Virus record (IMG/VR): IMGVR_UViG_3300030108_005118
Span: 1-21,236 of that record
Source of the DNA: a virus
Reading direction: 5' to 3' (one strand)
Length of the DNA stretch: 21,236 nt
Part shown: piece after piece, positions 1,927-18,415 of the stretch
Layout of the letters: each line of letters starts with the position of its first letter
Position numbering within the stretch: the stretch's first letter is position 1
Made by a program: the position numbers and the translations under genes
The notes under the pieces: generated by a model
Told to the model about the DNA's origin: nothing
Database searches by the model: none
The model's input: the letters and a program-made list of their open reading frames with translations, nothing else

Positions 1927-3045
1927 ATGGCATTCTTTAATAAAAAACAAGAGGTCTTGGATATTCAATTGACCCCATATGGCGAGGACTTGCTTTCACG
2001 TGGAAAGTTTAAGCCCGTTTATTACGCTTTTTTTGATGATGACATTCTCTATGATGGCTCTGGATCCGCTGGAATTACAGAAGTTCAGAACGATATTGAA
2101 CCAAGAATTCAAGACAACACTCCTAAGAGCAAGATTCAATATGTATATTCCGGACCAGAAAAGCGAACAACGGATAGGATTCGCCAAGCCTGGGAGGAAG
2201 TCGGCTCTGTGGTAATAGGGGAATATGGTGTGCGAACTATTGGAGGCACGCCTGCTCCAATGCTGGAAATGGAACTGCTTACCGAAGAGTCTCGCGGACG
2301 TAATTTTGACCAGTATTACTACGTCGATCGCAACCCTCCGATATTTACCGATTTTAATTTTGTTGAGCCTCTTGGGTCAATGGAGATAGGGAGTGAGCAC
2401 GCCCCATCTTGGAGAATTATTGCACTAAACGGTGAGGTGTCTGGTGCTATAAACTACCTAACAAGCTCCGCTGAAGCAGGTATCCACAACAATGTCAGAA
2501 GGATACCACAGATTGATTTTGACGTTACCTACAGAGTCTTGGTAGGCAATGAGAGGGATATTAATATTGACTCGGGATTAAGAGATAGAATCATCAGTAA
2601 AATATTTGATGATGGGACGTTCTTGTATCTATCGGAGGACGCTCCAAATATCATGTTAGTTGTCGACGAGGAAAATTCTCCAATTGATATTGAGTATGAT
2701 ATTGAAGTATTTTCTGTTGAACGTGGACCAGAAGGAGCAGACACGCTCTTAATGCCTCTATATTTTCAAAAAAAACCGGAACAGGTTGTGAACGGAGTGC
2801 TGCTGGATCCAGACGAAATACCAGTGTTCAACTTGACTGATCTAGACCCTTCATACACTGAATACTTCTTTCAAATCAATTCAGATTTAGAAATACCTGA
2901 AGAAGAGATATGCCCCAAGATAACAAACCTTAGAAGCAGGGGAGTTGTAGGCGGCAATATACCGTATGATTGCCCTGACGTGAAGAGGGTTAACTTAATG
3001 GACGTATATGGATCTGATACCGGAGAAGTGGAGATTTGTGACTAA
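1927..3045 (+). CDS. Phage structural protein with N-terminal LDIxLTxxG motif (372 aa)
   Basis: The ATG at 1927 follows the upstream stop by two bases, and the stop overlaps the next start as TAATG, suggesting translational coupling. Residues 1-44 form a distinctive block: MAFFNKKQEVLDIQLT, then YGEDLLSRGKF, then FFDDDILYDG. A recognisable variant of this block opens the 313-aa protein at 9723. The remainder is acidic, beta-rich looking and without membrane segments. The last ~45 residues carry three cysteines (ICP, YDCP and the terminal EICD), which are rare elsewhere in the protein. I recall this N-terminal block from virion-region genes of marine myoviruses, but do not know its biochemical role. 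A tail or baseplate component is the best guess. Confidence 0.75.
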   Translation: MAFFNKKQEVLDIQLTPYGEDLLSRGKFKPVYYAFFDDDILYDGSGSAGITEVQNDIEPRIQDNTPKSKIQYVYSGPEKRTTDRIRQAWEEVGSVVIGEYGVRTIGGTPAPMLEMELLTEESRGRNFDQYYYVDRNPPIFTDFNFVEPLGSMEIGSEHAPSWRIIALNGEVSGAINYLTSSAEAGIHNNVRRIPQIDFDVTYRVLVGNERDINIDSGLRDRIISKIFDDGTFLYLSEDAPNIMLVVDEENSPIDIEYDIEVFSVERGPEGADTLLMPLYFQKKPEQVVNGVLLDPDEIPVFNLTDLDPSYTEYFFQINSDLEIPEEEICPKITNLRSRGVVGGNIPYDCPDVKRVNLMDVYGSDTGEVEICD

Positions 3046-6000
3046 TGTCAAACGTATCTGAAGATAGCCTAAGAAGCGGTGGTTTTACGCCCAACCTATA
3101 CGTAAAAAGGATATCAATTCGTCACGGCTCGTCAATAGTATCATCAAAAAATTCAATTTCTGATCAGGGCAACTTTATTCGATACCGAAGAGACGATGGG
3201 ACCTTGGTTTATAATGCTGTCAATGGCAATTCTGAATTTACGGATGGCTCAACGGAAGTCGATCTTAGTGTGCAAGTTAAGGACGTAATAAACTCAGAAA
3301 CTAAAAAAGGATTTTGGCTGAGTGATCTTGCTGGACGCGCAAAGTCAGTGATGTATGTTCTTCAAAGCACCAACCCAAGACTAACCTCAGAGCTATTAGA
3401 CGGCGCCATATTTGATAGCATAAATCCAAAAGTTCCAGCAAGGTATAAAAAACTAATCGACTATGAAATAAAAGAATTGTCCTTAGCATTTACAGAAGCT
3501 GAAGAGCTGAGTATCTCAAGTATGATTATGCCCACAACAGGAAATAGAGTCGCCTCTCTTAATAGAAGGTTTACGTTTCAGGTCCCAAGTGACTCCCCTC
3601 AGCATTTAACATACTTTACATTTGTAAAAACACCCCTAGAAGAGCCAAAGGGAAAATTCACCCCCCACAGCATGGTGTCAGTTGAGAAGGTTATCGAGGG
3701 AGGGTTGTTGGTTGATCAAGCTTTTGTTTTTCGAGATTCCAGTAATCAAATATGGGCTGGACCTGTCCACCTTCATCCGGAAAAAGGCTGGATGGAGGGC
3801 GCTTTTCACGTTAGCGCCCCGCACGAAAGCTTACGTAGAATAGCCATAAATAACTTTAAAGTTCAAGACGAGCGTATTTTTTCGCTTATAAATTCCCATG
3901 TCATAAATCTAGGAAAAGTGGAGAACACTAGGTCTGAAGTTTCGGACGCTTACGTTTCAAGGTCTCCCGACAATCAGGCGACTATGATTTTTACTTTTGA
4001 CCATCTTAGCTATATGATAGAAAATTCTAAATACGGCAAGCTCTATGCCAATAGCTCGCGCAGCTTGCAGAATGAGCTATTGAGAAGATCTAGGATAACT
4101 AACTTATCGATACTAAGAAAGAGGGTTGTACCAAGAGATTCTATAAACTCATTAGGTAGTGCGGATAAAGTTTTATATGATTTTTCCGATGAAAAGCCAC
4201 CGGAGGTTTTGGTTGTTTCCACAGATGATGGTGGAGTTTTGCAAAACCAAAGTCGGTATGTGGTCGACGGCGCTGATTATAACAAGTTTAAAGACATAAG
4301 AAGTTCTTCTGAGCCTCCGACTGATTATAAGTTTTATGGAAGTATAAAAGAATTAGCCCTTGACGCGATCGGTCGTAAGAGAGCGTTTGCAGTCAGAGAC
4401 GGCTCAATTGCAAGAGTTTCGGACGGTAAGTACATTTATCAGGCACAGATTGAAATTGAGGATTCGGCATTTTCGTTTCTTAAGGAAAGGTTGGAACATT
4501 TTAACAAGATGCTCAACTTGATGACTAACTATCTTCAGTTGGCGCAGAGCAATAGTAATTTTAACTCACAAACGGGACGTTTTCGCCGATCCTTCGTTAA
4601 TTCTCAAAAGGTTACAGACCAAGCAATCCCGGTCTGGCTTGGGTCAATTATCTCTCTAATTGAAACAATGGATATCCTCACAGAGATTAGCACCCAAGAA
4701 AAATCACGATTAGCCAATGCCATCTATACTTTGATAAGCCCAGAGGTGGGAACCCTCCAGGGTGTTGAAGTATATGTTTCCGCATTGCAGGCGTTTAGCA
4801 AAAGGTTTGAAGCTGCCATAACTGGACAAAAGGCTGTGCATGCGCGGGACAAAAGTTCAATTTCTCAATCCTCAGAGCACACACGCATTTCCAATACTTT
4901 TCAATTTTCTGAGGTTTTTGATGCCAACGTAACCCACAATACTGGCTTTGAGTATGTAAAGCTATCAGATAACCTAAGCCTAACAACAGCCGAGTTTATT
5001 AGGCGTGTTGATACTGAGTTAGCGAGGTACGCCAAGAACCTATACGATACAACAGAACTACAAGAAAATTTTGATTTTATTAACAATCAAGACGCCCAGG
5101 CGTTGGTTGCGAACAACACTAGGTATGCCCATATGGCGCCAAGATATTTTAAAGTGATTGGCACTGTGGTAGACCTTTTATCAGAGAATAAAGATTCTCT
5201 AGATTTTACCTCAGTAACAGCTACAATTCAGTCAATCCTGGATAATCCAGCTAATCGAGATCTGGATGTTTACATCGAGAGGGACACCCTGGGTCTTCTC
5301 AGGAAAACTGGAACTGGTCCAACAACAGAGAGGATTCAGGCTTTGGCGACACTTTTTGAATCAGCTGCCGCCGATGATGGCATATATGTTAAAGAAACTC
5401 TTGATAGATCCATATTAAAGGTCGACCCTCGCGCTGCATCTCAGGCAAGGTCCGTATCTTCTGAGGAGTTTTTAGGATCGGACAATAAATTTTCAACCTC
5501 AACGGATGAGATACCAGCTAATACCGCTCGTAGTGCCGTTGTGAAGAATGCTGATTCATTGTCGGTTTTACAAGAATTGCTCAGATTTAAAAACGAACCT
5601 ACAGATAAAAATGTTTCACAATCAGAGTCACTAGAAAATATATCTTTTGACCTGACTAGAAACGATAACTTTATCAACAAACGTCTTCGTCCAGAGCTGC
5701 AGCCACCCAATGAGCCTGCTCCGCCTGGCGTCTTAACGGAAGCATTGCAAGCCTTACCAGAGCAAATAAAACTCTTAACTAGAAGCAAGAATAGGGTTTA
5801 TAATGATAGCTCGGCTATGTCAACAACCACGACAGATTCCCAGACAGACGCATTCATATACAATTTTTCCATGATACGAGTAGTAGAATATTTATCCGGC
5901 TATCAAGACGAAGATGCCCGCCGTCCAATCTGGCAAACTTTGAATGCCGATGTTTTAAACTCTGCAAGAAAGGGATTGTTGTGCAGGTTTAGAAGCTACT

Positions 6001-6461
6001 CAGATTCAGCAACTAACATTGGCGCGTTTACCAAGCTAGATAGCATCCCCGTTTATAATGAACACTTTATTTTGTCTCCTACCGGCGCTTCTAGCCCAGC
6101 CCGAACCACTCCGCTAGCGCGGAGACAAATAACTCCGAGTGCTTTAGAGATAGGATTTAAAAAGACCTCATTTACCCGTGGTCCAGAGGGTAGCAACACT
6201 CGCCGTCTAATAGGCTTTGGCACCCAAGTCAACGCAATAGATGGGCAGACAGAATATATTTCTTCTTCTATAACAGGCGCTCCAACCAGCTCCAGACGAA
6301 GGCTCTCAGGGATCACTTCAACAGAAAATGGTTCTGCAGCGTCCGTAGCACCACCTTCAGCTGAGGTCCGCGCGCCCACACGCAGACCCACAGCGCCTGC
6401 AAGAAGATCAGCCCCAGCTAGCACAGGAACGTCAGTAGGCGGCGGAGGATCAGGTTACTAA
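3045..6461 (+). CDS. Very large phage virion protein (1138 aa) with WxGPVHxH segment and disordered C-tail
   Basis: The start is fixed by the TAATG overlap with the preceding gene; the stop overlaps the next start in the same way. No enzyme family is recognised. Residues 236-260 hold a histidine-rich stretch: IWAGPVH, then LHPEKGW, then H255 and PH260, with histidines at 242, 244, 255 and 260. A long middle part (about 480-720) is helix-rich, and a more conserved-looking segment follows around 950-1010. The final ~55 residues are low-complexity, Ser/Ala/Pro/Arg-rich and end in a GGGGSGY stretch, probably disordered. There is no signal peptide or membrane span. It sits between two other virion-type genes and is probably a tail or baseplate component. 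The size and position are certain; the function is inferred. Confidence 0.75.
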   Translation: MSNVSEDSLRSGGFTPNLYVKRISIRHGSSIVSSKNSISDQGNFIRYRRDDGTLVYNAVNGNSEFTDGSTEVDLSVQVKDVINSETKKGFWLSDLAGRAKSVMYVLQSTNPRLTSELLDGAIFDSINPKVPARYKKLIDYEIKELSLAFTEAEELSISSMIMPTTGNRVASLNRRFTFQVPSDSPQHLTYFTFVKTPLEEPKGKFTPHSMVSVEKVIEGGLLVDQAFVFRDSSNQIWAGPVHLHPEKGWMEGAFHVSAPHESLRRIAINNFKVQDERIFSLINSHVINLGKVENTRSEVSDAYVSRSPDNQATMIFTFDHLSYMIENSKYGKLYANSSRSLQNELLRRSRITNLSILRKRVVPRDSINSLGSADKVLYDFSDEKPPEVLVVSTDDGGVLQNQSRYVVDGADYNKFKDIRSSSEPPTDYKFYGSIKELALDAIGRKRAFAVRDGSIARVSDGKYIYQAQIEIEDSAFSFLKERLEHFNKMLNLMTNYLQLAQSNSNFNSQTGRFRRSFVNSQKVTDQAIPVWLGSIISLIETMDILTEISTQEKSRLANAIYTLISPEVGTLQGVEVYVSALQAFSKRFEAAITGQKAVHARDKSSISQSSEHTRISNTFQFSEVFDANVTHNTGFEYVKLSDNLSLTTAEFIRRVDTELARYAKNLYDTTELQENFDFINNQDAQALVANNTRYAHMAPRYFKVIGTVVDLLSENKDSLDFTSVTATIQSILDNPANRDLDVYIERDTLGLLRKTGTGPTTERIQALATLFESAAADDGIYVKETLDRSILKVDPRAASQARSVSSEEFLGSDNKFSTSTDEIPANTARSAVVKNADSLSVLQELLRFKNEPTDKNVSQSESLENISFDLTRNDNFINKRLRPELQPPNEPAPPGVLTEALQALPEQIKLLTRSKNRVYNDSSAMSTTTTDSQTDAFIYNFSMIRVVEYLSGYQDEDARRPIWQTLNADVLNSARKGLLCRFRSYSDSATNIGAFTKLDSIPVYNEHFILSPTGASSPARTTPLARRQITPSALEIGFKKTSFTRGPEGSNTRRLIGFGTQVNAIDGQTEYISSSITGAPTSSRRRLSGITSTENGSAASVAPPSAEVRAPTRRPTAPARRSAPASTGTSVGGGGSGY

Positions 6462-9400
6462 TGTCATCAAATAAAAAACATAACTTTTTAGTCGACTTCA
6501 CCAACACTATGACGTCTTGGGATTCTGAAGGGTCGCCGTTTAGCACTAACACCCCGCAAGCATCACCCAGCCGCCCTAACCAAGACGCTCTTCGTAGAGA
6601 TTATGGCGGCTTATGGTATCCCGGTGTTGGCAGCCGCTGGAGGTATGGTGTCGCTATGGGAGATGGGATGTCTTTAACCCCTAGCCGCCCAGGTGCGCGA
6701 GCGCCAGATGCCCTAATTCATAGATATTTTTATAGAGACTACGCCGGTATTTCTGATGTAAGCTTAGAAGATGTTGTAAATGAATATACTCCCGAAGAGG
6801 AGGGTTCAGTTCCTGGAGGTGTTCCCGAACTTTCTTCACGCATGCGAGCCAACGTTGTTGTTAATTCTGTTGGAGCCGAGGAATTTTATGGAAACGAGGC
6901 TCCCTATGGCTATATACGCCAAAGAATAAGGATTGAGGCAAACCGCGATCTGCTGCCAGCCGGAGGTGTTGTTAGTACCTACACTGACGTTTTCGATGCG
7001 AGCACAGAAGAGCGCGCCGATCCAGCCGACATCACTGCCTGGCGAAATTGGTGCATTGAGAACTATTATGGGCGCTCGACCGAAGAGGGTTCCCTTGGAG
7101 TATATAAAACCTTTTTAGATCACTGCGCTAGCTATGATTCGCCTTACACTCCACTAGAAAAACTGGCGAGCCCAAACAACAGACAAGCAGCCACAACGGA
7201 TTTTGAATATAACTTTTTCATTAAAAAGTATGAGAATACCATCGCCACCTCTCCAACAGAGGACGAAAGAATTATTCCTCATATTTACACAATGTATTTT
7301 GAGAAGTCTCGGGGTATGGGTATTGATGGCGCTGAGGACGTCCCTCGTGGCGCCCCCCGCATCGTTGATCCATCGTACAACGAGGACTTCCTGTACAGTG
7401 ATTTCGTGACACTGAACAGAGCGTTAAAGAAAGTGTTTATAAATAGCCTCCGTGTAGAGCGGTTTGACTCCCTTGCTGGTGTTGAATTAGATTCGGTAAG
7501 GACAGAGAAAACTGGCGAGATAGATAGGGTGAGGTATTTTGAAAAGTGGACGAGCCTCTATAACCGTATCTACAACCCCATTGCTGGCTCTGGCTATCCT
7601 CCCGATGTTGTTGTCAACGGGCTAAACCTCATCAGATCAAAGTATAAAAACCTTCTTTTTACTCGAAACGCTGCTGAGGAATCGCAAGGATATAATTTAT
7701 ATAAGAACCTATTTCCAATGCGCTGTGAGCTTTCATTTCCCTTGGCATATTCGCAGTTTATGGGAGAAGCGCATGTCGGCGACATTGCAGGATTTAACTT
7801 AGCCAACGCCAGCACAGTTGCGCGAATTTGGGACGCATATCATGGTGCCCAACAGCGTGAAACATTGTCCCAATATTTGTTGAAAGTCAACTTTGCTGAA
7901 AATCACCAAAGCGGCGATACTATTCGCGCCACGCCGGATAATATTGCAAACGGTACTGAAAGAACCGCTTTTAAACTAGCGGATTTGTTCGAAAATTTAG
8001 ATTCGTCTCGAACCGGTGGAGCGAACATTACATTTGTGGATGACTTTGTATCTTTTCGAGGAGCGCTTGGAGTCACAAGAACTGAAGACCCCGCTGGAAT
8101 CGTCATTGATACAAATACAGAAGAATCCCCAGACGATAGGATTATAGACCTCAACGACGGTATTAGTTACAATGAATTTATTAATAATATGATTGAATTA
8201 CTGCAAAGTCAATCTGAGCAATATTTGAGAAGATATACGGAGATGTTAGAGGGCGCAGAATCATTCTCATGCCCTCTTTACTACCGAGTCAACAAATACC
8301 AAAGGCTAGCCGGTCAGCGTGGAAGTTTGATACAGACCATTATAATACCCCAATACACAGTTATAAAAAATAAGTTGTTTAGTTACATTGACACTCAGAT
8401 GCGTTATGAGAACAGCTATGAGTATGAAATAATAGGATACAACGCAATCATCGGCTCTAAATACAGGTTTACAGAACTTTATTTGCCAACTTACACCGAC
8501 AGTGGCGCGATAATTGATGGTCAGGTAGAGTATTTTGGACCAATCTTTTTGGCAGCGCAAACGCCTGCTAACCGCAGGCGGACTTCCATGGATAGAGCTG
8601 ATGGCACACGGGTGGCTCTTGCCACAGCTGAGCCGGATGCGGATGCTCGGATTGGCACGCTCCCCGCGCTAGCGACCGCCCTCGACGGAGTTACAGAGCC
8701 AGCCCTACTAGAGGGTTCTGGCAATCCATTCTTTGCTGAAATCGAGGTTGTGGTAGAGCCCTCTATTGTGGTGGTAGAGGTGCCCTACATCGCTAATGGG
8801 TATCCCTGGATGCCGTCTGCTGATACATCTTTTGGAATTGGAACAATTCTTGATGATCCCGGCATATCACCAAACGTGCGTGTAATCCCCTATCGTGGAG
8901 TCGATAACAAAATTTTGTTTAACCTTGAGACAGGGATTGGTCAAGAGTTTAATCTTCCAATTAGCATATCTTCCCGCGAGGAGCAATATTATGCTCGTTT
9001 GCAAGAAAATAGCGACGGCGAAAACGGACCCTTGGTTTTTTACGAAAACGACGATCCGGCTGCAGCTTTTGAGATTTATAGAATTTCATCATACCCCGCC
9101 ACTTACAGGGATTTTGAAAATAATATGATCGCCAACATCCCCACTGATGATAAACTTATCGGATACAGGAGGGGCGCCTCCGTTTCGTATGTTGATGATA
9201 TCAGACCAAACACCAAGTATTATTATATGTTCCGTTCTTTGGATATACATGGTCACTATTCATACCCGTCTGAAATTTATGAGGTCGAGATGATAGAGGA
9301 CGCGGGAGCGGTCTATCCAAGGGTTAGGGTTGTAGACCCCCTTCAGGATCAAAGTAGAAAAACTCTGCAAAAGAATCTAAAAAGATTCTTGCAAATTAAG

Positions 9401-9628
9401 CCTCAATTGACACAAAGACTATTTAATGTTGGCGAGACTTTTGACCCCCTTGATCAAGAAGAGAATGCGTCTGCGCCCGTAACAGACAACATTGTTTTAG
9501 GGAATAGGGCAGAGAAGATTTGGGATCGAAAATTTAAGATTCGCTTGACGTCTAAAAAGTCTGGAAAGAAAATAGACTTAAATGTAACTTTCAAGAAAGA
9601 GTATGATGATCAAAGAAGTGATTCTTAA
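6461..9628 (+). CDS. Very large phage virion protein (1055 aa) with C-terminal fibronectin-III-like segment
   Basis: The ATG overlaps the upstream stop (TAATG). The protein begins with a Ser/Asn/Pro-rich stretch and has no signal peptide or membrane span. Residues ~860-950 resemble a fibronectin type III or related beta-sandwich fold: an FEIYRIS strand, a VDDIRPNTKYYYMFRSLD strand pair (912-928), then HGHYSYPSEIYEV. The very C-terminus is basic (KFKIRLTSKKSGKKIDLNVT), a tail I recall from large proteins of marine phages. Fn3-like modules are common in phage tail, baseplate and adhesin proteins, where they mediate surface contacts. It is the last gene before the only sizeable intergenic gap, so it may end a transcription unit. 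A virion role is inferred; the Fn3 call is by eye and needs a profile search. Confidence 0.73.
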   Translation: MSSNKKHNFLVDFTNTMTSWDSEGSPFSTNTPQASPSRPNQDALRRDYGGLWYPGVGSRWRYGVAMGDGMSLTPSRPGARAPDALIHRYFYRDYAGISDVSLEDVVNEYTPEEEGSVPGGVPELSSRMRANVVVNSVGAEEFYGNEAPYGYIRQRIRIEANRDLLPAGGVVSTYTDVFDASTEERADPADITAWRNWCIENYYGRSTEEGSLGVYKTFLDHCASYDSPYTPLEKLASPNNRQAATTDFEYNFFIKKYENTIATSPTEDERIIPHIYTMYFEKSRGMGIDGAEDVPRGAPRIVDPSYNEDFLYSDFVTLNRALKKVFINSLRVERFDSLAGVELDSVRTEKTGEIDRVRYFEKWTSLYNRIYNPIAGSGYPPDVVVNGLNLIRSKYKNLLFTRNAAEESQGYNLYKNLFPMRCELSFPLAYSQFMGEAHVGDIAGFNLANASTVARIWDAYHGAQQRETLSQYLLKVNFAENHQSGDTIRATPDNIANGTERTAFKLADLFENLDSSRTGGANITFVDDFVSFRGALGVTRTEDPAGIVIDTNTEESPDDRIIDLNDGISYNEFINNMIELLQSQSEQYLRRYTEMLEGAESFSCPLYYRVNKYQRLAGQRGSLIQTIIIPQYTVIKNKLFSYIDTQMRYENSYEYEIIGYNAIIGSKYRFTELYLPTYTDSGAIIDGQVEYFGPIFLAAQTPANRRRTSMDRADGTRVALATAEPDADARIGTLPALATALDGVTEPALLEGSGNPFFAEIEVVVEPSIVVVEVPYIANGYPWMPSADTSFGIGTILDDPGISPNVRVIPYRGVDNKILFNLETGIGQEFNLPISISSREEQYYARLQENSDGENGPLVFYENDDPAAAFEIYRISSYPATYRDFENNMIANIPTDDKLIGYRRGASVSYVDDIRPNTKYYYMFRSLDIHGHYSYPSEIYEVEMIEDAGAVYPRVRVVDPLQDQSRKTLQKNLKRFLQIKPQLTQRLFNVGETFDPLDQEENASAPVTDNIVLGNRAEKIWDRKFKIRLTSKKSGKKIDLNVTFKKEYDDQRSDS

Positions 9629-11807: not shown

Positions 11808-13078
11808 TGCCATATTATAAGTTTAAAGAAACTGACATATTCTACAACAGAATAGAGGCGCACCCTAAGAAAGAGTTCTTCGTTTTTAACTCCTCTGTAT
11901 TCTTGGACAACCAGTCTTTAATTAGTGGTGCGTTCACGGCTAGTATACCAAATGTCCCAACCGGTTTCGCCAGTCTTTATGAGCTGAATGTAGATAGAAT
12001 CTCAGCTAGTACCGGTCGCGTTATGGGCGACGGCACAGACCACCCTATATGGAACAATGGTCTCATATACCCATTCATTACAAAGGGCGGTTCTCTGGAG
12101 AGATTTAGGACCGTATCCGCAACCAGCTTTAACGCAGATTTTGCGTATGGCGATGTGATGACTGGCAGTTATCCTTTATCTTCCAGTATAGTTAGGGAGT
12201 TCTTTGCAGAGTCAGCCACACGCGATCAGTCGGCAAACAGAATCAGCGCACTTCGAAATACGCTAAATTACTACACCCCGCTCAGTCGGCAATATGAGTA
12301 CGCTCCCGCAACTGGAGAGTGGGATAAGGGCGTGCAGGCAATTAATTTGATTAGTATCCCGTCCATTTTCTATGGATCATCCATCAAGAAAGGAACTATT
12401 AATTTAAAATACTACATAACTGGCGCTTTGATCGGCGAGATTAGAGATGAGAACTTAAATGGAGAATTAATACAAGTGGGTCCTCCCGGCAGCAATGGCT
12501 CTGGTAGTGTAGCTGGCGTTGCGCTTTATAACGAGGGTTTCCTTGTATTGACAGGAAATTGGGACCTATATTCCCCTGACGGGGTTGGTCCTGTCTCCCT
12601 AGATTATAGCGGGGATGGAAGTAATATTGATTCATCGTGGCTTTACTACGCTGTTGGGGCAAATGACGGCATCACAGCCAGTGTCGATATTGTGGCAAAT
12701 ACAAGAGCCTCCGCAAGCTATGCGATGACCTATGAGGGCGTTAATTACGTGCCAGTCGTCACGATGCTTGCAAATGCGCCAAAGGCAGAGCTAAACTATT
12801 CAAACAATCCTACATATATAAATCTGGTTGACCTGAGAACTGGCTCTTTATTCAACTCCAGTTCAATGTCTTATATCGAAAATGATAAACAAGAAATCAA
12901 AAATACTGTAAAATCACCTTATATAGATCCAACTGGTAGCTATGCACCACAGACATTTATATCAAGAGTTGGACTATACGATGAGAACAAAAGGCTCATC
13001 GGCATTGCTAAGGTTGCTACTCCCGTGAAGAAAACAGAAGATAGGGACCTTACATTTAAGTTGAAACTGGACTTTTAA
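11807..13078 (+). CDS. Phage structural protein, paralogue B of NYSxNPTY family (423 aa)
   Basis: The start at ATG 11807 lacks a visible Shine-Dalgarno sequence and abuts an inverted repeat; the next in-frame Met is far inside (residue 73), so 11807 is kept. Shared landmarks with the 369-aa protein are IKKGT (193-197), GVALYNEGFLVLTG (237-250), NYSNNPTY (330-337) and the C-terminal block (384-423) FISRVGLY, then IGIAKV, then PVKK, then LTFKLKLDF. Residues ~216-236 add a glycine-rich loop (NGELIQVGPPGSNGSGS). The stop overlaps the next ATG (TAATG at 13076-13080), coupling a virion gene to a DNA-processing gene. A virion role is inferred from paralogy and position. Confidence 0.77.
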   Translation: MPYYKFKETDIFYNRIEAHPKKEFFVFNSSVFLDNQSLISGAFTASIPNVPTGFASLYELNVDRISASTGRVMGDGTDHPIWNNGLIYPFITKGGSLERFRTVSATSFNADFAYGDVMTGSYPLSSSIVREFFAESATRDQSANRISALRNTLNYYTPLSRQYEYAPATGEWDKGVQAINLISIPSIFYGSSIKKGTINLKYYITGALIGEIRDENLNGELIQVGPPGSNGSGSVAGVALYNEGFLVLTGNWDLYSPDGVGPVSLDYSGDGSNIDSSWLYYAVGANDGITASVDIVANTRASASYAMTYEGVNYVPVVTMLANAPKAELNYSNNPTYINLVDLRTGSLFNSSSMSYIENDKQEIKNTVKSPYIDPTGSYAPQTFISRVGLYDENKRLIGIAKVATPVKKTEDRDLTFKLKLDF

Positions 13079-13617
13079 TGATTTTAGGATTAGACGTCAG
13101 CACCAGCATCACTGGTGCGACGGTTGTTGACAAAGACGGTAAAGTAGTTTATACTACTGCTTGGGACACAAGAAACAAGAAGCACTTCCCAACACTCATC
13201 TCAAAGGCAACGTGGATTGAAGAGCGCTTGATTGAGGTTGGTAAGAAGTATAAGGTTCAAGAGATTTATATTGAGCAGTCTCTACAATCTTTCAGATCGG
13301 GATTCTCATCGGCAAAAACACTCTCAACATTGTCCCGATATAATGGTATAATATCATGGATATGTTATCAGGTGTTTCATCGTGAGCCCGACTATTTGGC
13401 TGCTACTTCTGCTCGTAAATCTTGTGGTATTACTGTGCCCAAGGGAACCAAAGCAAAAGAAGTAGTTTTAGAATATTTGCTTGACAACGAGCCCTCGTTT
13501 GAGGTAGAATATACAAGACATGGAAATCCCAAGCCCGACTCCTACGATCGGGCTGATAGTATTGTAATAGCGAAAGCCGGTTATATTGAATGGAAGCAGA
13601 GAAACTCAAAATCTTAA
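13078..13617 (+). CDS. RuvC-like Holliday junction resolvase (RNase H fold)
   Basis: At 179 aa this matches RuvC-family length. The N-terminus has ILGLDVSTSITG with the first catalytic Asp at D6, followed by the beta-hairpin typical of the RNase H fold. The second acidic residue is E66 in YIEQSL, and the C-terminal pair is D157/D160 in SYDRADSIVIA. The family cuts four-way DNA junctions with two metal ions; in phages it resolves branched replication and recombination intermediates before packaging. The start overlaps the stop of the preceding virion gene by one base, and the 3' end overlaps the primase gene by 28 bp. A related RNase H-fold nuclease of other specificity is possible. Confidence 0.85.
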   Translation: MILGLDVSTSITGATVVDKDGKVVYTTAWDTRNKKHFPTLISKATWIEERLIEVGKKYKVQEIYIEQSLQSFRSGFSSAKTLSTLSRYNGIISWICYQVFHREPDYLAATSARKSCGITVPKGTKAKEVVLEYLLDNEPSFEVEYTRHGNPKPDSYDRADSIVIAKAGYIEWKQRNSKS

Positions 13618-14525
13618 AATCTATTCTCGGTTCTTTTCGGAGAACCGGAACAGAGTATCTCTTCCACTGTCCTTTCTGCAAGCATCACAAGCCAAAGTTT
13701 TCAGTTAATCTTCATCGCGGCGCCAAGTGCTGGGTGTGTGATTGGAAAACCCCCCATATTCGTCGTGTAGTGCGACGTGCGGGCACTCGTGCTGATTTGC
13801 AAGAGTGGGATGCGTTGACGGGTCGCGTCTCTCTGGATGCGTTTGAGAGCCTTTTTGGGGACATTGACGATTCGGAGCCGGAACCTGTCATCGAGCTGCC
13901 CGAAGAGTTTGTTTCTTTGGCAAATAATAATGTATCTTTGTCGTCACTTCCGGCGAGAAGATACTTACTAAAGAGAGGTCTGTCCAAGACAGACTTCGTA
14001 AAGTGGAAGATTGGCTTTTGCGTGCACGGCGAATACGCTAACCGCGTGATTATTCCGTCTTTCAACATGAATGGAGAGGTGAACTATTTCATTGCTCGTG
14101 CGTATAACGATGATTGGATGCGATATAAGAATCCACCAGTCAGTCGAGACATTGTTTTTAATGAGCTGTTTCTTGATTGGGACAGCGATCTAACGATAGT
14201 GGAGGGCGCCTTTGACGCAATCGTCGCAGGCTCCAACTCTGTTCCAATCCTAGGCTCCACGCTGAACGAGAGTTCTAAACTATTTCAGGAGATTGTCAAG
14301 CATGACACTCCTATTTACCTCGCTCTTGATCCTGATGCAGAGAAGAAGTCCAATCGGCTGATCACTGCCCTTATGAAGTATGACGTGGAACTTTATAAGG
14401 TTGACATCACTGGGTATGATGATGTAGGATCAATGACGGCAGAGGAATACCAAAAGCGAAAAGAGGCTGCGATGTTTATGTCTTCGGACAATTACCTTTA
14501 TTATCGCGCCCTTACCGCACTTTAA
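13590..14525 (+). CDS. DnaG-type DNA primase (zinc finger + TOPRIM, no helicase)
   Basis: The 311-aa protein begins with a CHC2-like zinc finger (C27PFC30 and C47WVC50) for template recognition. A primase core follows, with NRVIIPSFNMNGEV (151-164), then a TOPRIM domain with E205 in VEGAFDAI and the DPD motif D247/D249 in LALDPDAE, the metal-binding residues for RNA primer synthesis. It is shorter than bacterial DnaG (~580 aa) and has no C-terminal helicase domain, so a separate replicative helicase is expected elsewhere in the genome. The start lies inside the end of the RuvC-like gene (28-bp overlap) and lacks a strong ribosome site, consistent with translational coupling. A GGAGAAG site for the following gene sits just past its stop. 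Confidence 0.88.
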   Translation: MEAEKLKILKSILGSFRRTGTEYLFHCPFCKHHKPKFSVNLHRGAKCWVCDWKTPHIRRVVRRAGTRADLQEWDALTGRVSLDAFESLFGDIDDSEPEPVIELPEEFVSLANNNVSLSSLPARRYLLKRGLSKTDFVKWKIGFCVHGEYANRVIIPSFNMNGEVNYFIARAYNDDWMRYKNPPVSRDIVFNELFLDWDSDLTIVEGAFDAIVAGSNSVPILGSTLNESSKLFQEIVKHDTPIYLALDPDAEKKSNRLITALMKYDVELYKVDITGYDDVGSMTAEEYQKRKEAAMFMSSDNYLYYRALTAL

Positions 14526-14534
14526 CGGAGAAGA

Positions 14535-15245
14535 ATGACAAAATTTAAAAACTTGTCCTCGTCAGAGGACATAAATAAATGGATCAATGAAGTGTATTTT
14601 GAATGCAAGTCCTCATATCCCCTCCCCCCAGCTGGGCGTATGCTGTCTACCGCTGTCGACATCGGGGCTAACGTAGGCGGGTTCTGCCTTCACGCTCATA
14701 GCAAATTTGAAAAGATTTATGCCTTTGAGCCCCTAAAGCAAAATTATCACATCTTACAACAAGTTATACTTCAAAGGGGGCTTACAAATGTGGAAGCTTA
14801 TTGCAATGCTGTCTACTCAGAGAGTGGTAAGGCATTAAGTCTTGTGCGTCCCGAGAACAATATATCTGGCGATGTGTTTTGCTCCGAAGAGGGCAATACA
14901 CTCGCTATAGAAAAGTGTGAAACTATTTCGCTAAGTGACATCATTAAGACTTTAAACATCTCAAAAATTGATTATTTAAAGATGGACTGCGAGGGGGCTG
15001 AATATGATATATTTGAAAATTTTAATGATTTTGATAAGATTTTTATAATAGCCCTTGAGCTGCATGAAGTGGGGGACTATCCCCTTCTTAAGAAAGAAGC
15101 GCTGCTTAAAAAGTTACACGAACATTATGTGTTTATTAGAAACCACAAGGGAAGGGTGACAGTGGAAGAAGCTCGCACCTCCTCAGAGGCTCAAGACTAT
15201 AAAGACTTTATAAATGAGTCGGCTCTTATTTTATTTAAAAGGTAG
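14535..15245 (+). CDS. FkbM-family SAM-dependent methyltransferase
   Basis: The 236-aa protein has the class I methyltransferase signature VDIGANVGGF (41-50) for S-adenosylmethionine binding, FEP at 64-66 after the second strand, and the FkbM-type block IDYLKMDCEGAEYDIF (145-160). FkbM enzymes usually O-methylate sugars or small molecules. In phages they are suspected to modify glycans on the virion or host surface, but the substrate cannot be read from sequence. A clear ribosome site (GGAG, 14527-14530) precedes the ATG. It is odd to find this gene between a primase and a recombination nuclease. By eye its DNA is more AT-rich than its neighbours (for example 14995-15060), which could mean separate acquisition. 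Confidence 0.87.
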   Translation: MTKFKNLSSSEDINKWINEVYFECKSSYPLPPAGRMLSTAVDIGANVGGFCLHAHSKFEKIYAFEPLKQNYHILQQVILQRGLTNVEAYCNAVYSESGKALSLVRPENNISGDVFCSEEGNTLAIEKCETISLSDIIKTLNISKIDYLKMDCEGAEYDIFENFNDFDKIFIIALELHEVGDYPLLKKEALLKKLHEHYVFIRNHKGRVTVEEARTSSEAQDYKDFINESALILFKR

Positions 15246-15250
15246 AAAAA

Positions 15251-18200
15251 ATGACTTATAAAATTGCCCACCTGGCAGATGTTCATATCAAGAATCTAAA
15301 GTATCACTATGAATATAGGCACGTTTTTAACCAATTATACGCTATTTTGCGTAAAAATGAGGTAGATTACATCTATATTGGGGGTGATATTGCCCACACA
15401 AAGACCCAAATTAGCCCCGAATTCGTGCAATTGTGCTCGGAATTGTTCACAAATCTGGCAGAAATTGCCCCACTTTACATCATTTTGGGCAATCACGATG
15501 GCAACTTGCGCAACAAAAGTCGTCAAGATGCCATCACGCCCATCGTAAACGCACTAGATAATCCCAATATTCATCTTTTGGCGGCTGCTGGAGAGACTAT
15601 TGTCACCGATGACCTAGCATTTAACGTGCTTTCAGTGTTTGATGAGGACAATTGGGTCAAGCCCAGCAGTGAAGACCGCATCAATATTGCCCTTTACCAC
15701 GGTTGCGTAGCTGGTGTCCAGACCGATGCCGGCTGGGTTATGGAGTATGGGGACCATGATGTCTCAATCTTCGCCGGTCACGACTTCGCAATGCTCGGAG
15801 ATATCCACAAGACCAACCAAATCCTTGACGAAGATGGTCGTGTCCGCTATTGTGGTTCTATTGTCCAGCAAAACCACGGTGAGACCAATGATAAGGGATT
15901 CTTGATTTGGGAAATTAATAGTAAGGACGACTTTACTGTCACCCACCACAAGCTTCTCAACCCCAAGCCGTTTATTACGATTGAGCTTACGCCCAAGGGA
16001 CGACTGCCAAAGAATGTCCAAGTACCAGACGGTGCCCGACTGCGCCTTGTGGCAAATAACAGCCTACCAGCAGACCGCCTCCGCCGAGCGATTGAGATTG
16101 TAAAACATCGATTCAAGCCTGAGAGTGTGTCATTCCTCAATCGTGCCGCAGGACAGCGCGGCTCTGTGGACAACCTGGCTGATGGTCTCAAGAAGGAGAA
16201 CCTCCGAGACCCCAGCGTCCAGGAAAAGTTTATCACTGAATACCTCAAGGACTTTGAGGTCACCGAGGAGGAGCTTGACCGCGTCTTTGAGTTAAACCGC
16301 AAGTATAGCACCCTGGCACAGGAAAACGAGGATGTGTCCCGCAATGTAGATTGGAAGCTAGAGAGTATTGAGTGGGACAACCTATTCAACTACGGCGAGG
16401 ATAACAAGATTGATTTTAATAAGACCAGCGGCATTGTTGGCATCTTCGGCAAAAATTATTCAGGCAAGTCCTCCACAATTGACGGACTGCTTTACACCAT
16501 GTTCAACAGCACGTCCAAGAACGAGCGAAAGAACCTTAATATTATTAATCAGAATAAAGAGGGGTGTAGAGGCGTCGTAAAGGCATCTATAGGGGACGAG
16601 ACCTACGAGATACACCGTACATCGGAAAAGTATGTGAAGCGCCTTAAAGGGCAGGAGACAACCGAAGCAAAGACCGATGTGGACTTCTTCAAGACCAACC
16701 TTCTCGGAGAGAAGGAGGAGCTAAACGGACTCACCAGAAATGACACGGATAAGAAAATCCGAAAGGTTTTTGGTACGATGGAGGACTTCCTCCTGACGTC
16801 AATGGCTTCTCAGCTTGGCTCCCTATCGTTCATCGGCGAGGGTTCCACCAAGCGTAAAGAGATCCTAGCCAAGTTTCTTGACCTAGAAATATTTGAGAAG
16901 AAGTTTAAGATGGCAAAGGACGACAGCTCTAGCATTAAGGGCGCTCTTAAGTTGCTGGAAGGCAAGGACTTTGTAAACCTCATCACAGCTGCTTCCAAGG
17001 AGCTGCGCGAGAACGGCGAGGTAATTGATGGTCACAAGGCAACCTGTGAGGTGACCAGGGAAGAAATCAGGAGTGTACAGGCTCTCATGCAAGACGTTGA
17101 ATCACAGATTGCATCAATCCCCACTCAAATGATTGACTATGACGCTGTACAGGAGGAGCTAGGCACAAATGAGCTTGATCTATACAAAGCAGATGAGGCA
17201 CTCAAGAATCTCCAGCAGGAATACCACGAGAAGGAAAAGTTACTAACAAACATTGCCGCCTTCCTGTCTGACATCGATATTGATGACATTTTTATTAAAA
17301 AGGAACTTCTTGCCACTAAGCAGGAGGAACTGTCTGAGTTAAACAATATTATCAAGCTTCTTGACCGCGAACAGGCGAACAACCAGAAGAAGATGAAGAT
17401 GCTGGAGACGCACGAGTACGACCCCGACTGCCACTATTGTAGCGAGAACAAGTTTGTCAAGGATGCCCACACAGCCAAGCAGAAGTTTGCTGAGAATGCT
17501 GCTAAGCTTGCCACGCTACATAACGAGAGTGGCAAGATTGAAGCCGACATTTCAGCCCTTAACGAGCCAGAGATTATCAAGAAGCACAATCAGTATGAGC
17601 AGTTAGCCAAGAAGAAGAGTGATGTTGAGCGCAAGCTGACGAAGTGCGAACTGGATATTGAGAGGAATAAGTCCACAAAGCTTTCAGCCGAGCATAACAT
17701 CCAGCGGCTTCTTAAGGAAATTGACACATATAACGAAAATAAGGAAGCTATTGAAAAGCTTTCGGAACTCAATAAGCAGAAGCGAAACTATAATAAGAAT
17801 ATCTTTTCTCTTAACAAGACTTTAGAAAATTGCGATAATGAGCTTAAGGAACTATATGTAAAGCATGGCTCGCTGGAGCAGCAGGTTGAAAGCCTGCGAG
17901 ACCAGAAGCAGGAGTTGGAGGACCTACGAAATCAATACTCTGCTTACGATCTTTACATGCGCTGCATGCACAGCAACGGCATTGCATATGATATCATTAA
18001 GAAGAAGCTCCCTGCAATCAATGATGAAATCGCAAAAGTTCTTACAAATATTGTAAACTTTGAGGTTTATCTTGAAAGTGCCGACAAGCGGCTTAATATC
18101 TTTATTAAGCACCCTCGCTTTGAACCGCGACCGCTTGAGATGGGCTCTGGAGCCGAGAAGACAATCGCCTCGATGGCAATCCGCTTGGCACTCCTATCCG

Positions 18201-18415
18201 TCTCCAGCCTACCCAAGGGCGATATCTTCATTCTTGATGAACCGGGCACCGCTTTAGACGAAGAAAACATGGAAGGGTTTGTGCGTATCCTAGATTTGAT
18301 CAAGGCTCAATTCAAGACCATTTTGCTGATTTCGCACTTGGACTCATTAAAGGATTGCGTTGATTCTCAGATAGTTATAGAAAAGAAAGATGGGTACGCT
18401 TTCATAAACCACTAA
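15251..18415 (+). CDS. Fused Mre11/SbcD nuclease - Rad50/SbcC ATPase
   Basis: One 1054-aa open frame holds both halves of a complex usually made from two genes (sbcD/sbcC, or T4 47/46). The N-terminal ~330 residues are a calcineurin-like phosphoesterase with all motifs: D10/H12, GGD (44-46), GNHD (80-83), H150, GH (176-177) and GDIH (183-186). A short helical linker follows. The Rad50 part has Walker A GKNYSGKS (400-407), a Q-loop near TSMASQLG, coiled-coil arms, a CxxC zinc hook (C727-H-Y-C730), the ABC signature GSGAEKT (965-971), Walker B FILDEP (993-998), the D-loop (LDEEN) and switch H1029. All catalytic residues seem intact. It should process DNA ends for recombination-dependent replication. 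No internal stop or alternative restart site was noticed. Confidence 0.93.
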   Translation: MTYKIAHLADVHIKNLKYHYEYRHVFNQLYAILRKNEVDYIYIGGDIAHTKTQISPEFVQLCSELFTNLAEIAPLYIILGNHDGNLRNKSRQDAITPIVNALDNPNIHLLAAAGETIVTDDLAFNVLSVFDEDNWVKPSSEDRINIALYHGCVAGVQTDAGWVMEYGDHDVSIFAGHDFAMLGDIHKTNQILDEDGRVRYCGSIVQQNHGETNDKGFLIWEINSKDDFTVTHHKLLNPKPFITIELTPKGRLPKNVQVPDGARLRLVANNSLPADRLRRAIEIVKHRFKPESVSFLNRAAGQRGSVDNLADGLKKENLRDPSVQEKFITEYLKDFEVTEEELDRVFELNRKYSTLAQENEDVSRNVDWKLESIEWDNLFNYGEDNKIDFNKTSGIVGIFGKNYSGKSSTIDGLLYTMFNSTSKNERKNLNIINQNKEGCRGVVKASIGDETYEIHRTSEKYVKRLKGQETTEAKTDVDFFKTNLLGEKEELNGLTRNDTDKKIRKVFGTMEDFLLTSMASQLGSLSFIGEGSTKRKEILAKFLDLEIFEKKFKMAKDDSSSIKGALKLLEGKDFVNLITAASKELRENGEVIDGHKATCEVTREEIRSVQALMQDVESQIASIPTQMIDYDAVQEELGTNELDLYKADEALKNLQQEYHEKEKLLTNIAAFLSDIDIDDIFIKKELLATKQEELSELNNIIKLLDREQANNQKKMKMLETHEYDPDCHYCSENKFVKDAHTAKQKFAENAAKLATLHNESGKIEADISALNEPEIIKKHNQYEQLAKKKSDVERKLTKCELDIERNKSTKLSAEHNIQRLLKEIDTYNENKEAIEKLSELNKQKRNYNKNIFSLNKTLENCDNELKELYVKHGSLEQQVESLRDQKQELEDLRNQYSAYDLYMRCMHSNGIAYDIIKKKLPAINDEIAKVLTNIVNFEVYLESADKRLNIFIKHPRFEPRPLEMGSGAEKTIASMAIRLALLSVSSLPKGDIFILDEPGTALDEENMEGFVRILDLIKAQFKTILLISHLDSLKDCVDSQIVIEKKDGYAFINH

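Follow-up and report, generated by a model that had tools for sequence, protein, structure and literature searches.

The T4 gp46/gp47 proteins process DNA ends for recombination and recombination-dependent replication. These proteins and their relatives (phrog_77/phrog_100) are an SbcC/SbcD-like pair, a phage recombination endonuclease, that is specified by two separate genes, with a GHFH or GHYH motif in the gp47-type proteins and a CPTC hook. E. coli SbcCD and the Mre11-Rad50 complexes of Thermotoga and Pyrococcus also comprise two subunits and bear a GHIH motif. Yoshida, Claverie and Ogata (2011; PMC3175470) reported fusions of Mre11 and Rad50 from eukaryotes and plasmids as well as from Mimivirus and a Bacillus phage, and thus the fused architecture is not new but has been known from viruses since 2011. 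The same study inferred that aquatic phages carry Mre11/Rad50 fusions, some beside a primase, argued for a role of the fusions in end processing and recombination, and concluded, with a different set of taxa from that used here, that the fusions do not form one group. A linker of 9-12 residues was estimated from the Thermotoga complex, with which three clamp residues and the linker length were compatible (PMC3175470).

In the window analyzed here (the whole stretch of 21,236 nucleotides of viral DNA), one frame of 1,054 codons opens with ATG and runs uninterrupted by stops through an Mre11/SbcD phosphoesterase and then a complete Rad50/SbcC ATPase (Table 1). In the product, P0001, residues 4-178 matched Metallophos (2e-10) and residues 375-583 matched AAA_23 (8e-9) in Pfam, whereas residues 1-346 were SbcD-like (2e-32) and residues 271-1048 were SbcC-like (8e-58) in PHROGs. 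A fold search of the PDB retrieved Mre11-Rad50 heads, SbcD and SbcC. The best matches in a viral fold library were near full-length proteins of giant viruses (Tupanvirus, Harvfovirus, Yasminevirus and Catovirus) and phage proteins, those of similar length being from Tenacibaculum phages PTm1 and pT24 and Listeria phage LMTA-57. Based on these family matches and on the conservation of the motifs, the proposal in an earlier note of an Mre11-Rad50 that unites nuclease and ATPase motifs in a single polypeptide is confirmed. The fused gene was the sole SbcC/SbcD match in each of 14 large related viral records, and a 735-kb phage record possessed further partial SbcC/SbcD matches beside its fused gene. 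In six named phages (T4-like, T5-like and others) the SbcC/SbcD matches lay in separate frames. The two-gene organization was confirmed for T4-like phages and E. coli, in line with the separate subunits that the earlier note gave for T4 and bacteria.

P0001 shares its domain order, a preserved capping and helix-loop-helix region, a short linker and a viral origin with Mimivirus R555 and the metagenome homologs of the latter, and some of the homologous scaffolds bear primase genes as is the case beside P0001 (PMC3175470). However, judged from its published description, R555 is longer (1,351 aa) than P0001 and its phage relatives (~1,050 aa) and has a longer coil. The WWT39521.1 protein of Microcystis phage Mel-JY01 is similarly fused, is 30.8% identical to P0001 over its full length, and is encoded one gene past a primase, but is located on a distant branch and has a CxxC hook of the type DPKCKHCCNN. 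P0001 also shares its fold and motifs with the E. coli, Thermotoga and Pyrococcus proteins, although the coil of E. coli SbcC is longer. Quick trees of both halves, which are limited by long branches and few outgroups and leave out the other fusions of the 2011 study, placed 29 fused viral proteins in one group apart from the T4-like, T5-like, E. coli and Chloroflexota pairs, with support of 98 for the Rad50 half and of 97 for the Mre11 half (93 when one truncated row was removed).

Table 1. Features of the fused gene and its upstream neighbors in the window.
Feature	Coordinates	Strand	Basis
RuvC-like resolvase	13078..13617	+	PHROG 159, 3e-7
DnaG-type primase, in relatives usually directly upstream of the fused gene	13590..14525	+	PHROG 47, 6e-36
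Fused Mre11-Rad50 (SbcD-SbcC) gene, P0001, 1,054 aa	15251..18415	+	Open frame; family matches; 80/80 relatives fused
Mre11/SbcD phosphoesterase domain, ~residues 1-235 (D10, H12, D46, N81-H82, H150)	15251..15955	+	Pfam Metallophos 4-178; invariant residues; domain end approximate, from model
GDIH, residues 183-186; Asp184 at first His of canonical GHIH	15797..15808	+	Profile alignment to solved Mre11/SbcD; invariant in family
Loop, ~residues 188-200; split/insert site in relatives, intact in window	15812..15850	+	Comparison of relatives
Mre11 helix-loop-helix (Rad50 clamp), residues 321-358	16211..16324	+	Two helices in AlphaFold2 model
Joint, clamp to Rad50, residues 359-366, family-constant length	16325..16348	+	Model; R319-W368 = 50 residues in 80/80
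Rad50 N-terminal ATPase lobe, residues 367-545; Walker A GKNYSGKS (400-407)	16349..16885	+	Pfam AAA_23; model
Coiled coil, first arm, residues 546-719	16886..17407	+	Model helices; fast-evolving
Zinc hook loop, residues 720-733, CxxC type (C727, C730)	17408..17449	+	Loop between arms in model; hook types compared
Coiled coil, second arm, residues 734-906	17450..17968	+	Model helices
Rad50 C-terminal lobe, residues 907-1054; signature SGAEK, Walker B D996-E997, switch His H1029	17969..18412	+	Match to solved Rad50; invariant residues

Residues D10, H12, D46, N81-H82, H150 and G183-D184-I185-H186 of the nuclease half were invariant or nearly so among 49-64 relatives. Profile alignment with solved Mre11/SbcD proteins set D184 of the GDIH motif opposite the first His of GHIH/GHLH. 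The canonical set of seven metal ligands that includes GHIH therefore is incomplete in P0001, which has D184 in place of this His and retains the remaining ligands. As the Asp is invariant, occurring in every aligned fused relative, this ligand has been replaced across the whole family. The description of all motifs as intact in the earlier note thus was correct in that every listed motif is present, but GDIH carries an Asp where the canonical GHIH, the form in E. coli SbcD, has a metal-ligand His. An Asp likewise replaces the second metal-ligand His in the R555 fusion (PMC3175470), and a T5-like D12 protein has GDLH. The substitution could change metal use. If the nuclease half instead were weakened or retuned by the substitution, which is common to all aligned fused relatives, the protein might act chiefly as an ATP-driven DNA tether or clamp. 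This is unlikely, because every other metal ligand is invariant, the Mre11 half is well conserved, metal binding is possible for Asp, and the GDLH of the D12 protein has the same exchange.

The ATPase half of P0001 possesses the complete canonical SbcC/Rad50 set of Walker A, Q-loop, signature, Walker B and switch His. Walker A, Q521, C730, S966-G967-E969, D996-E997 and H1029 were invariant or nearly so in the 49-64 relatives, and the signature is SGAE compared to the canonical SGGE. The CxxC zinc hook, C727/C730, is positioned in the apex loop of the coil in the model, with C727 being part of the hook type that varies in the family.

P0001 probably functions as an Mre11-Rad50 (SbcCD) enzyme in a single chain, with which a large marine tailed phage processes DNA ends for recombination and replication. 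We infer the enzyme activity, dimerization, clamp docking and replication role by analogy with canonical complexes, in which case two chains would pair both through their ATPase heads and through the zinc hook, and the heads would close over the nuclease upon ATP binding. ATP hydrolysis then would give the nuclease access to DNA ends, hairpins or blocked ends for cutting or resection, and the resulting 3′ ends would pass to a RecA/UvsX-type recombinase of the phage for repair and recombination-dependent replication. In addition to the primase and resolvase genes, a terminase gene is located downstream of the fused gene in the window. The flanks of the 80 nearest viral relatives contained a primase match in 65 cases, a resolvase in 56 and a terminase in 61, and the primase match ended <100 bases from the fused gene in 30. 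A RecA-family gene was present in 11 of the 12 related genomes that were searched, and none was found in the window's own record, a 22.8-kb fragment. The primase, resolvase and terminase flanks, together with RecA in related genomes, fit a function in end processing for recombination and recombination-dependent replication.

The enzyme alternatively might mainly degrade the DNA of the host or of rival phages, or counter host defense, as the ATPase half matched Lamassu LmuB at 2e-26. However, all Rad50-like ATPases score against LmuB, P0001 is fused to Mre11, most relatives have the gene in a neighborhood of replication and packaging functions, and no LmuA or LmuC partner was recognized beside it. 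On this gene context a Lamassu defense role is not favored, and degradation or counter-defense as the main function is quite improbable.

Other features of the neighborhood also were recorded. An FkbM-type methyltransferase gene lies between the primase and the fused gene at positions 14535-15245 of the window; none of the 80 relatives, even that with 94% identity (L002), has this gene in its flanks, and so it probably is a recent insertion. Two very large open reading frames (1,138 and 1,055 aa) at positions 3045-9628 matched nothing in Pfam or PHROGs at the default threshold and perhaps specify tail or baseplate proteins, judging by their position. The Immutovirus phages, which were checked as near cultured relatives (TerL 49% and primase 36% identical), have no matching fused gene.

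The earlier note regarded the clamp of Mre11 on the Rad50 coil as having been turned into a covalent linker at residues ~330-370. The AlphaFold2 model of P0001 (mean pLDDT 84.9, pTM 0.50) points to a different arrangement: helices at residues 321-335 and 339-358 are followed by residues 359-366, with the first Rad50 strand from residue 367. The predicted clamp helices match the C-terminal region of Thermotoga Mre11 in profile alignment, and the model helices and this alignment place a capping and helix-loop-helix region before a short linker. Thus, the Mre11 clamp is predicted to be retained intact, and only the ~8 additional residues make up the joint, which is close to the 9-12 residue linker of the 2011 fusions (PMC3175470). 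Across the joint, every one of the 80 aligned sequences has precisely 50 residues from R319 to W368, without gain or loss. As the clamp is retained, the joint most likely would tie it to the Rad50 N-terminus in the normal docked place and thereby fix the pairing of nuclease and head, rather than act as a new hinge, although the pTM of just 0.50 leaves clamp docking on the coil as a proposal.

In principle, a separate Rad50 also could be produced from an internal start near codon 362, such that one-piece and two-piece forms coexist. The window has a GTG at codon 362 after GAGGAT, with a purine-rich stretch just upstream. However, there was no common ATG or GTG/TTG at codons 345-416 in the 80 relatives, and codon choice in this interval was not unusually uniform, which together make a conserved second translation product unlikely. 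A conserved internal start at the joint therefore was dropped, and the coexistence of both forms is very improbable. The fused frame of P0001 is present in 80 of the 80 nearest viral relatives (53-94% identical), with no stop and restart at the joint. Given the two separate genes of T4-like phages and the metagenomic origin of the contig, an assembly or sequencing error might be suspected as the source of the fused frame. This is rejected, since all 80 relatives are on other contigs and the Mel-JY01 genome carries the same frame annotated as one CDS.

The fused genes of the relatives start with ATG, GTG or TTG, with GTG/TTG in many instances (for example L008, L010, L015, L018 and L024 among others), so that gene calling restricted to ATG would remove 60-170 residues from the nuclease. 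Fused genes also were observed on contigs binned into bacterial and archaeal MAGs (L124, L125 and L127-L133), which probably are misbinned phage contigs. Moreover, the chromosome of a WOR-3 bacterium MAG (CP070664.1, 2.8 Mb; L126, positions 2959-5052) has a relative that is 62% identical over residues 3-628 and in which the frame stops at 698 aa. This is either an integrated phage remnant or a misassembly.

In 24 fetched loci, of which 17 are distinct, the gene is broken inside the phosphoesterase between GDIHK (~residue 187) and YPGSxxQQN (~residue 200) (L083, L104, L166, L168, L196, L203, L259, L269, L275-L277, L281, L289-L296, L304, L311, L316 and L322). The first open reading frame contains the metal ligands and ends in a tail similar to EIEIDEDDLxKYPGAEVI, and the second opens with a lead similar to MSKKIKIKVKKPWIAYPGS and runs on across the clamp and into Rad50. 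These new tails are conserved. In many pairs the two frames overlap where one stops and the next starts, either in an ATGA or GTGA arrangement or across several bases; a short gap separates others. An open reading frame of ~290-305 aa separates the halves in L083, L293 and L304/L322 and has weak nuclease-fold matches: TnsA-like barely above the cut-off, and Vsr and PvuRts1I-like below it. The product may be endonuclease-like. There was no Rfam match at gathering thresholds in the split relatives, and an intron reading of these loci, including L083, was dropped because overlapping or near-abutting frames with their own start codons better fit a split gene. Split and one-piece states required five changes on the tree, four of them forced, and thus splitting or rejoining has recurred. 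One relative (L068, positions 5634-8867) is one-piece with an in-frame insert of ~30 residues at the split site, VDEKDLDKYLEDGWEIVEENKIRKAQCLAIYPGS, that resembles both tails of the split relatives joined in frame.

Homing endonucleases split phage genes in a like manner, and the split nrdA of phage Aeh1 still is functional (PMC2988022). In both Aeh1 nrdA with mobE and the re-split relatives a replication enzyme is cut into two frames in a functionally critical region, at times with an endonuclease gene between the halves (PMC2988022). Here, unlike in nrdA, the cut lies within a nuclease whose gene had already been fused, and is confined to relatives and absent from the window. No scorable locus was broken at the Mre11-Rad50 joint, and the 11 loci scored as 'other' also are long in-frame fusions, but similarity to fused proteins was the basis for fetching the loci, which biases the comparison towards intact joints. 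Re-splitting of the nuclease with retention of the joint in 24 relatives indicates that a single chain is not required family-wide. Consequently, the fixed 1:1 ratio that the earlier note attributed to the fusion applies to the one-piece proteins but not to these relatives. A partial literature search found no earlier report of nuclease re-splitting with the fusion kept.

The CXXC hook is described as a highly conserved, constitutive dimerization module that can be replaced by an SMC hinge (PMC6969161). Among the 80 aligned relatives, the coil apex was CxxC in 17, including the window, PCG-type Cx6C in 57 and Cx7C in six. The CxxC hook typically reads HEYDPDCxYCxxNxFV and the PCG type VPCGxxFxxCKFI, and models of one protein of each type placed the motif in a loop between two long arms. 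Hook state changed eight times on a tree of residues 1-560, which excludes the hook, and well supported branches forced at least seven of these changes; with 117 sequences in a wider set, eight changes were forced. The sisters L005 (CxxC) and L007 (Cx6C) share 85-98% identity in the heads, compared to 31% in the hook. Recombination of the whole coil was rejected as a full account of hook switching, since a coil tree without the hook columns still needed eight changes, four of them forced. A search for a recent DNA donor of the hook found none, and the PCG hook had no significant match in named phages (best E of 6, in other genes). No earlier report of a PCG-type alternative hook was found in a partial literature search, and alternation between CxxC and PCG-type Cx6-7C hooks seems to be unreported. 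That the two types set dimer specificity or metal use is a guess.

Taken together, the evidence leans modestly towards a family that is under constraint at the joint while other parts of the enzyme vary. In this reading, the hook would be an interchangeable module with two alleles, CxxC and PCG-type Cx6-7C, which might govern either metal use or the specificity of dimerization. The nuclease would have been re-split several times in its active-site loop, yielding, with new terminal tails, a free Mre11 N-half and a chimera of the Mre11 C-half and Rad50. As the fusion itself is a known architecture, the main interest is in how the family behaves around the fused gene. The full-length fused genes in phage contigs back the inference, made in 2011, of a phage origin for many of the aquatic reads labelled 'Mimivirus R555-like'. 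With the clamp kept and the joint constant in length, the one-piece proteins would provide natural single-chain constructs for structural study of Mre11 on Rad50. Moreover, sister proteins with near-identical heads but unlike hooks are a natural experiment on what the hook decides, and the re-split relatives are a natural experiment on which covalent links the enzyme truly needs.
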